Below are positions 8,288 through 21,440 of a stretch of 35,201 nucleotides of DNA, one piece after another. The stretch spans positions 1-35,201 of the forward strand of contig RHBP01000002.1 in assembly GCA_010030955.1 (NCBI GenBank), written 5' to 3'. The translations under genes were made by a program, and so were the position numbers. Numbering within the stretch: the stretch's first letter is position 1; each line of letters starts with the position of its first letter. The notes below the pieces were generated by a model. The model was not told the DNA's origin, searched no databases, and worked only from the letters and a program-made list of their open reading frames with translations. The DNA is from Synechococcaceae bacterium WBB_10_009 (GTDB taxonomy: Bacteria; Cyanobacteriota; Cyanobacteriia; PCC-6307; Cyanobiaceae).

Positions 8288-9174
8288 GGCTGGGTCAGCA
8301 GGTCGAGCCGGCGGCGGGTTTCCGCGGGCACGTGCTCCTGTGGGGTCATCAGCGCATCCCGCAGGGCGCCGTGGGCGCTGCTGGTGGGCCGCAGGGCCGC
8401 CACCCGCTCGGCGGTGATGCGCACGATTTGGGTGGCCAGGGCCGCGTTGGCCCGCAGGTTGGCGATCACCATGTCGACCGTGACGCTGTCGTGGCCCTCA
8501 AACCAGCAGTCGTAATCGGTGGCCATGGCGAGGGTGGCGTAGGCGATCTCCGCCTCCCGGGCCAGCCGCGCCTCGGTGTGGTTGGTCATCCCGATCACGG
8601 AGCAGCCCCAGGAGCGGTAGAGCTGCGATTCCGCCCGGGTGGAGAAGGCGGGACCCTCCATGCACAGGTAGGTGCCCCCCCGATGCAGGGTGCGATCGGC
8701 GGGCATCAGGCTGTCCGCCACATCCGCCAGCAGGCGGCTGAGGGCCGGGCAGAACGGATCGGCGAAGGTCACGTGGGCCACCGCCCCCTGGCCGAAGAAG
8801 CTCAGGGGCCGCTGGTGTGTGCGGTCGATGAATTGATCGGGCACCACCATGTCCAGGGGGCGCACCGCCTCCTGCAGCGATCCCACCGCCGAGGGCGAGA
8901 GGATCCAGCGCACCCCCAGGGATCGCATCGCCCAGATGTTGGCGCGGTAGGGCACCTCCGTGGGCAACAGGGTGTGGTGACGGCCATGGCGCGCCAAAAA
9001 CACCACCTCCATGCCCCCCAGACGCCCCAGCCGCAGGCTGTCGGAGGGGGCGCCAAAGGGGGTGTCAACGGTGAGCTCCTGGATCTCCTCCAGGCCTTCC
9101 ATCGCATACAGGCCGCTCCCCCCCAGCACCCCAAGCCGCGCCTGGCTGAGATCGGTGCTGCTGGGGCCGGTCAT
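8263..9174 (-). CDS. mtnP: S-methyl-5'-thioadenosine phosphorylase (303 aa)
   Basis: Phosphorolysis of methylthioadenosine to adenine and methylthioribose-1-phosphate in methionine salvage and polyamine metabolism. Family motifs are seen: GVLGGSGLY near the N-terminus, [19 protein letters not shown], then [18 protein letters not shown] and [16 protein letters not shown], which form the phosphate and purine sites. The ATG at 9174 (MTGPSS) is preferred over an in-frame TTG three codons upstream. The gene stands alone on the minus strand. Its last 25 bases are antisense to the murQ end, so no room remains for a terminator between them. A purine nucleoside phosphorylase is the alternative but fits the motifs less well. 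Confidence 0.93.
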
Positions 9175-9242
9175 GGCGATCAAGCGGATTCAACCCTTCT
9201 ACCGGAGCGCCCATACTGATCCGGTGTGCTCTTGATGCCCCC

Positions 9243-9683
9243 GTGACCAAAGCCCTGATGGAGACCGACGCCGGCACCATCGAACTGGAGCTGTTCGACG
9301 CCGACGCCCCCAACACCGTGGCCAATTTTGTGAAGCTGGCCAACGAGGGCTTCTACGACGGTCTGGCGTTCCACCGTGTGATCCCCGGCTTCATGGCCCA
9401 GGGAGGCTGCCCCAACAGCCGTGAGGGCGCACGCGGCATGGCGGGCACCGGCGGCCCCGGTTACCAGATCGACTGCGAAATCAACGGCCAGAAGCATCAG
9501 GCCGGCACCCTGGCCATGGCCCACGCCGGCCGCAACACCGGCGGCTCGCAGTTCTACATCTGCCACGAGGCCCAGCCCCACCTCGATGGGGTGCACACCG
9601 TGTTCGGCCTCACCGGCAACATGGATGTGGTGCTGGCCCTCAAGAACGGCAGCCGCATCAACAAGGTGAGCATCCAGGCCTGA
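9243..9683 (+). CDS. Cyclophilin-type peptidyl-prolyl isomerase (146 aa)
   Basis: Cis-trans isomerase of Xaa-Pro bonds. The cyclophilin core is intact: [13 protein letters not shown] with the catalytic-type Arg, [15 protein letters not shown], and LDGVHTVFG. There is no signal peptide, so it is expected in the cytoplasm. The GTG start at 9243 gives [19 protein letters not shown], the usual opening in picocyanobacteria. A CATACT/TACTGAT stretch about 25 nt upstream may be its -10. It is a single-gene unit that converges on ribBA with only 17 bp between the stops. Confidence 0.95.
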
Positions 9684-18777: not shown

Positions 18778-21440
18778 TTAAGGCACCAGGTTGACCAGCT
18801 TGCCGGGAACCACGATCACCCGGCTGGGGGCCTTGCCCTCCAACCACTTGCTGGCGATGTCGCTCTCCAGCGCCAACTGCTCCAACGTGGCCTTGTCGGC
18901 GTCGGCGGGCACCTCCAGGCTGCCCCGCACCTTTCCCTTGATCTGGATCACCAGGGGCACCGTGTCGCGCACCAAGGCCGAGCCATCGGCCTCGGGCCAG
19001 CGCTGCCGGTGCACGCTTGTGGCGTTGAGGGAATCGCGCTGGTGCGACCCCCAAGCTTCTGCCAGAGCTCCTCGGCCAGGTGCGGCGCAAACGGGGCCAG
19101 CAGCACCACCAGGGTGCGCAGAGCTTCCGCGGCGAACACCGGGTGGCAGTCCGCCAGCAGGGGGGCCATGGCGTTGCTGAGCTTCATCAGCTCCGACACG
19201 GCGGTGTTGAACTGGTAGTCGCCGTCCAGGTCGTCGCTGATGGCGGCGATGGCGGTGTGCACGGCGCGGCGCAGGTCGGCATCGGCAGGGGCCAGGGTGC
19301 CGCCACCGGTGGCCATGGCCCCCCGCACGGCGTCCGGCGAGCCGGCCCCATCCGCCAGGCTCAGCCCTCGCTCCAGGAAGGCGTCTGCCAGGCGCCAGAT
19401 CCGCTGCAGAAAGCGGAACTGCCCCTCCACATCGGCATCGTCCCACTCCAGATCCTTCTCCGGGGGGGCCTTGAACAGGATGAACATGCGGGCGGTGTCG
19501 GCGCCGTAGCGGTCGATCACCTGGGCTGGATCAACGCCGTTGTGCTTCGACTTCGACATCTTTTCGAAGAACCTCTCCAAGGGCTCCCCGCTCACCGGAT
19601 CGCGGGGGTCCTCCGCATCGGCCACCGCTGAAGGGGGGATGTATTTGCCGCTGTTGGGATTTTTGTAGGTCACCCCCTGCACCATCCCCTGGGTGAGCAG
19701 CTTGGTGAACGGTTCGCCGCAGCTGAGCAGCTGGCGGTCGCGCAGGACCTTGGTGAAGAAACGGGAGTAGAGCAGATGCAGGATGGCGTGCTCGATGCCG
19801 CCCACGTATTGATCCACGGGCAACCAGGCATCCACCGCCTCCCGCCCGAACGGCAGCTGGGCGTTCATCGGGTCGCTGTAACGCAGGAAATACCAGCTGG
19901 AGCACATGAAGGTGTCCATGGTGTCCGTCTCGCGGCGGGCCGGCTGGCCGCAGCAGGGGCAGTCCACCTGCACCCAGCTCTCCAGCTGGGCCAGGGGTGA
20001 GGCCCCCTTGCCGGTGAAGGCCACATCCCGCGGCAGCTCCACCGGCAGCTGCTCCGTGGGCACGGGCACGGCACCACAGCTGTCGCAATGGATCACCGGG
20101 ATCGGGCAGCCCCAGTAGCGCTGGCGGGAGATCAGCCAGTCGCGCAGACGGAATTGCACCCGCTCATGGCCCCATCCCTCGGCCGCAGCGGCGGCGGTGA
20201 TGGCGGCCTTGGCCTGGTCGCTGGGGAGACCGTCAAACCGGCCCGAATGGATCAGCACGCCCGGCTCGGTCCAGGCGCCACCCTCAATGCCATCTCCAAC
20301 GCCATGTCCATCGCTGCCCTCCGGGATGATCACCTGCTGCACGGGCAGCTCGTACTGGCGCGCAAAAAGAAAGTCCCGTTGGTCATGGGCAGGGACTCCC
20401 ATCACGGCACCGGTGCCGTACTCCGCCAGCACGTAGTCGGCGATCCAAATCGGCAGCAGCTCACCGTTGGCGGGGTTGCGCACCCGGGCGCCGATGGCAA
20501 CACCGCGCTTGGGCCTGTCTTCGGCCGTGCGGTCCTGCTCGCTTTGGCGCGACACCTGATCGCAGAAGGCTTCCACCACAGCCCGTTGCTGGGGGGCGGT
20601 GAGGGCCGGCACCAGCGGATGCTCCGGGGCCAGCACCACATAGGTGGCGCCGAAGATGGTGTCGGGCCGTGTGGTGAACACGGTGATCGGCTCACCGGTG
20701 GTGCTGCCGTCGTCGCCCACCACCGCAAACTGCAGCTCCGCACCGGTGCTGCGGCCGATCCAGTTGGCCTGCATGGTGCGCACCCGTTCCGGCCACCCCT
20801 GCAGGCCATCGAGGTCGTCCAGCAGGGCCTGGGCGTAATCGGTGATCTTCAAAAACCACTGGCGCAGCTTTCGCTTTTCCACCAGTGCCCCGGAACGCCA
20901 GGAGCGGCCGTCCGCATCCACCTGCTCGTTGGCTAGCACGGTCTGGTCGATCGGATCCCAGTTGACCGTGGCCTCCTTGCGGTAGGCCAGGCCGGCGTCG
21001 AGAAACTGCAGGAACAACCACTGGGTCCAGCGGTAGTAGCTGCTGTGGCAGGTGGCCACCTCCCGATCCCAGTCGATTGACAGGCCCAGCTGGTCCAGCT
21101 GGCGTCGCATGGAGGCGATGTTCTGGTCGGTCCAGGCTCCGGGGTCCACCCCCCGTTCGATGGCGGCGTTCTCCGCAGGCAGTCCGAAGGCATCCCAGCC
21201 CATGGGATGGAGCACCTTGCGCCCCCGCAGCCGCTGCACCCGGGCCACCACATCGGTGATCACGTAATTGCGCACATGGCCCATGTGCAGGTTGCCGGAG
21301 GGGTAGGGGAACATCGACAGGGCATAGAAGCCCTGCTCACCGGGCCCCAGCTCCGGCGTGTCATGCAGCCCCTGCTCCTGCCAGGCCCGTTGCCAGCCCG
21401 CCTCAATCGCCTGGGGTTGGTAGCGGCTGGGGTCGCTCAC
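18778..21440 (-). CDS. leuS: Leucine--tRNA ligase, interrupted by an apparent one-base frameshift
   Basis: Charges tRNA-Leu. The first frame runs from the GTG at 21440 ([20 protein letters not shown]) through [11 protein letters not shown] (HIGH motif, residues 52-55), the CP1 editing region and KMSKSKHNG, to [11 protein letters not shown]. At 19048-19052 the minus strand has only five G. Reading on in frame gives nonsense and a stop near 18948. The other frame continues from here with [23 protein letters not shown] and the expected C-terminal domain ending [11 protein letters not shown]. One extra G restores a protein of about 886 aa. LeuRS is essential, so a sequencing or assembly error in the homopolymer is likelier than a true pseudogene. 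The listed ORF start at 21587 lies inside hfq and is rejected. Confidence 0.93.

Follow-up and report, generated by a model that had tools for sequence, protein, structure and literature searches.

A leucyl-tRNA synthetase gene split over two reading frames in a draft Cyanobium/Synechococcus-group contig: a probable consensus error

Results and Discussion

Structure of the leuS locus

The window analyzed in this study, 35,201 nt in length, is a whole contig of a draft metagenome assembly of the Cyanobium/Synechococcus group (369 contigs totalling 1.97 Mb, with 82.8% completeness and 4% contamination). It carries on the minus strand a leuS gene in which a net loss of one base places leucyl-tRNA synthetase (LeuRS) in two reading frames (Table 1). 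The TIGR00396 profile is matched from position 1 to 765 in the first frame (1046 bits, against a family cut-off of 548), which identifies the product as a bacterial leucyl-tRNA synthetase, and from position 760 to 841 in the second frame (E 2.2e-14). No single frame of the gene runs continuously across all 843 positions of the profile. The second-frame piece, comprising the C-terminal 85 residues and ending in VNLVP, also aligns with the C-terminal domain in LeuRS structures from the PDB (E 4e-17). In view of the profile matches in both frames and of the match to this domain, the split is real in the sequence and not the product of chance. The window gene shares the full domain order of bacterial LeuRS (TIGR00396, same genus) from start to end, but in comparison with leuS of the same genus it is one base short near its 3′ end, which puts the last 85 codons in another frame.

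Table 1. Features of the split leuS gene and other frame-broken genes of the assembly. Positions of the leuS features are those of the window; the last three rows refer to other contigs.
Feature	Position	Strand	Basis
LeuRS N-terminal part with catalytic, editing and anticodon-binding domains (one frame, ~800 codons, beginning with GTG 21440)	19039..21440	-	TIGR00396 positions 1-765; Pfam tRNA-synt_1, tRNA-synt_1_2, Anticodon_1; PDB LeuRS
Five-base G run proposed earlier as the site of the break; frame intact	19048..19052	-	Alignment to relatives and gap profile
Probable interval of the one-base loss (optimum 19037/19036)	19035..19044	-	Gap-placement profile, 22 relatives
False tail, first frame after the junction, ~29 codons, ends at TGA 18950-18948	18948..19036	-	Translation; no residues matching relatives
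LeuRS C-terminal 85 codons, second frame, ends at TAA 18780-18778	18778..19035	-	89% aa identity to nearest relative; most differences at codon position 3; PDB C-terminal domain, E 4e-17
Kinase-like gene, 11-nt deletion beside a short CGCGAC repeat	L121 near 3771 (G000:C4)		Absent from seven relatives
SNF2-type helicase, 11-nt tandem duplication	L124 near 2903 (G000:C7)		Absent from nine relatives
Glycosyltransferase-like gene, 20-nt tandem duplication	L131 near 8784 (G000:C14)		Absent from five aligned relatives

Position of the missing base

Within a 101-base stretch spanning the junction, each of the 22 loci of similar length from the same genus contains exactly one base more than the window and has a single open frame there. 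In order to place the loss, a one-base gap was slid along the window and the matches were summed over these 22 relatives. The highest sum, 1596, was obtained with the gap at 19037/19036, whereas a gap anywhere in the five-base G run gave 1499-1517. The individual optima of the relatives extended from 19046 to 19035, and in none of the 22 was the best gap located inside the run. The same-genus relatives share at this site the motif L-G-G-R, followed by three variable residues and D-x-L. In the window, the first frame is intact past the G run, via GGT CGC (the conserved Gly-Arg), and is lost only further on. On these alignments, the best-supported position of the one-base loss would lie approximately 14 bases downstream of the run. 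Because the gap profile peaks outside the G run and the optimum of no relative falls within it, the event is not homopolymer-related.

An earlier sequence-only reading of this DNA had claimed that LeuRS leaves one frame and resumes in another, one base short, with the loss of its C-terminal domain. These claims are borne out by the two-frame TIGR00396 matches, the 22 relatives (all one base longer) and the PDB match of the second-frame piece. The same reading had set the break exactly at the five-base run (19048-19052), but the gap profile rules out this placement. Moreover, the residues SHQR, at which it had LeuRS resume, most likely represent the conserved R-x-x-x stretch translated out of frame.

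Constraint past the junction, relatives and copy number

The nearest named relatives are genomes of the Cyanobium/Synechococcus group, the closest being the metagenome-assembled genome M_DeepCast_200m_mx_001. The amino acid sequence identity to the nearest relative is 87% for the N-terminal part and 89% for the C-terminal part. The corresponding differences at codon positions 1, 2 and 3 number 68, 62 and 250 in the N-terminal part, and 8, 9 and 23 in the C-terminal part. The relaxed codon pattern expected of a decaying pseudogene was not found past the break. Judged by these counts, the pattern there is that of a gene under selection, constrained like the N-terminal part and free of signs of decay.

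A survey of the family covered 151 genomes, 131 of which contain a match above the family cut-off. Among the matches listed, the window leuS is the only one whose frame is broken within a contig; the leuS genes of genomes G147 and G064 also stop short of the 3′ end, but both run off their contigs. In another draft genome of the genus (L191, G017:C455:2500-5600), an in-frame gap of ~87 residues affects the anticodon-binding region of leuS, which is possibly another assembly fault.

Profile and pattern searches for a second leuS elsewhere in the genome, a check proposed in the earlier reading, found none in the 82.8% complete assembly. The remaining matches were weak, with scores well under the cut-off, and resemble class I synthetases of other kinds. 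The exact junction pattern was not found in viral contigs.

Frame integrity of the surrounding assembly

The window genes other than leuS located at ~9.1-31.4 kb and 32.5-33.1 kb are unbroken in comparison with seven relatives; genes nearer the window ends were covered by protein families only. An apparent two-frame match at 9110-9677 proved to be an intact cyclophilin gene with an unrelated stretch before it.

Three further conserved genes, located in 188 kb sampled from other contigs, are frame-broken by changes absent from the relatives aligned across the sites (Table 1). Their names were taken from motifs and not from a family search, and the comparison of the glycosyltransferase-like gene comprised seven loci, two of which gave no useful alignment at the site. 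Judged from these alignments, the three breaks seem to have arisen in assembly or joining. A common cause with the break in leuS is not proven, since the leuS event is smaller. At another site of the assembly (L128 near 965, G000:C11), a DUF3531-like frame extends 120 bases into an apparent rsmE gene without a clear start; this overlap is possibly another indel.

A de novo codon scan using a window-trained model gave six candidate breaks in 188 kb of this assembly and none in 400 kb of two finished relatives, with sensitivities of 46% and 24%. With models trained per genome, seven and four candidates were obtained in the finished genomes. Only the homology-checked breaks were used as evidence, and the codon-scan rates were left out.

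Origin of the frame break

Programmed -1 frameshifting or transcript slippage could restore a full-length LeuRS, and the two frames do overlap, both being open across the junction. However, direct reading of the sequence from CTT GGG GGT to the junction revealed no correctly phased X XXY YYZ heptamer, and five G make a short run for transcript slippage. No frame change is conserved in the relatives: all 22 comparable loci use one open frame, so there is no conserved recoding signal. We therefore consider recoding extremely unlikely, in agreement with the sequence-only reading, which had ranked programmed slippage last. Even less credible is a split enzyme in which the C-terminal domain would be a chain of its own, in loose analogy to Aquifex LeuRS with its two subunits. 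Split LeuRS does exist, as indicated by PDB entries named subunit alpha, but a credible start is absent from the window gene (the sole in-frame candidate near the junction, GTG at ~19014, lies inside the domain and has no visible ribosome site), and none of the comparable relatives is split at this junction.

It is also unlikely, though less so than recoding or a split enzyme, that a very recent, true deletion of one base occurred in some or all of the sampled cells, leaving LeuRS without its C-terminal domain, in a lineage that is dying, in only part of the population, or with rescue by a leuS outside the incomplete assembly. A second leuS could indeed be missing from an assembly that is 82.8% complete, and the site lacks a homopolymer, the usual source of run errors. 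A real deletion is nevertheless at odds with the nature of LeuRS, which is essential and normally encoded by a single copy, with the undecayed downstream codons, and with the lack of any relative, among the matches listed, whose leuS is cut by a within-contig frame break. There is only a very small chance that the cells truly carry the shorter gene and either restore enough LeuRS by an unrecognised frame event or live without the C-terminal domain; if true, an essential tRNA synthetase would be read across a break in its frame, which is rare. The C-terminal domain of LeuRS has been described as mobile before tRNA binding (PMC9424281). A direct test of the loss of this domain was not found in the open literature.

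The one-base loss is very probably an error in the consensus of the draft metagenome contig, and the living cell most likely has an ordinary, single-frame leuS. A base near 19037/19036 was probably dropped during sequencing, assembly or the joining of mixed-strain reads, which broke the frame. A technical loss, absent from the cells, is the most likely explanation because (i) the assembly is a fragmented, incomplete and partly contaminated draft, (ii) the gene is in one open frame in each of the 22 comparable relatives of the genus, (iii) the window leuS contains the only within-contig break among the matches listed, (iv) the C-terminal part is as constrained as the N-terminal part, (v) no second leuS is present in the assembly and (vi) three other conserved genes in the 188-kb sample are frame-broken. 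Error was the first of the options listed in the earlier reading, and it is the leading one here. Four observations count against it: the comparable genes of the window are unbroken, the other three breaks are larger indels, none of them single-base, the codon scan gave no clean excess of breaks over the finished genomes, and the loss, lying outside any homopolymer, does not point to a run error typical of 454, Ion Torrent or nanopore.

Cooley and Wright (2024, PMC11017572) showed that many of the frameshifted "pseudogenes" of bacterial assemblies result from errors linked to coverage and to the assembler. Like such spurious pseudogenes, leuS is conserved and undecayed but frame-broken, in a draft assembly that has further indels; the leuS case, by contrast, was judged from the consensus sequence. 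Indels of this kind should be placed by alignment to relatives rather than at the nearest homopolymer, and when an essential gene appears broken in a draft metagenome assembly, this should be taken as a warning about the quality of the assembly.
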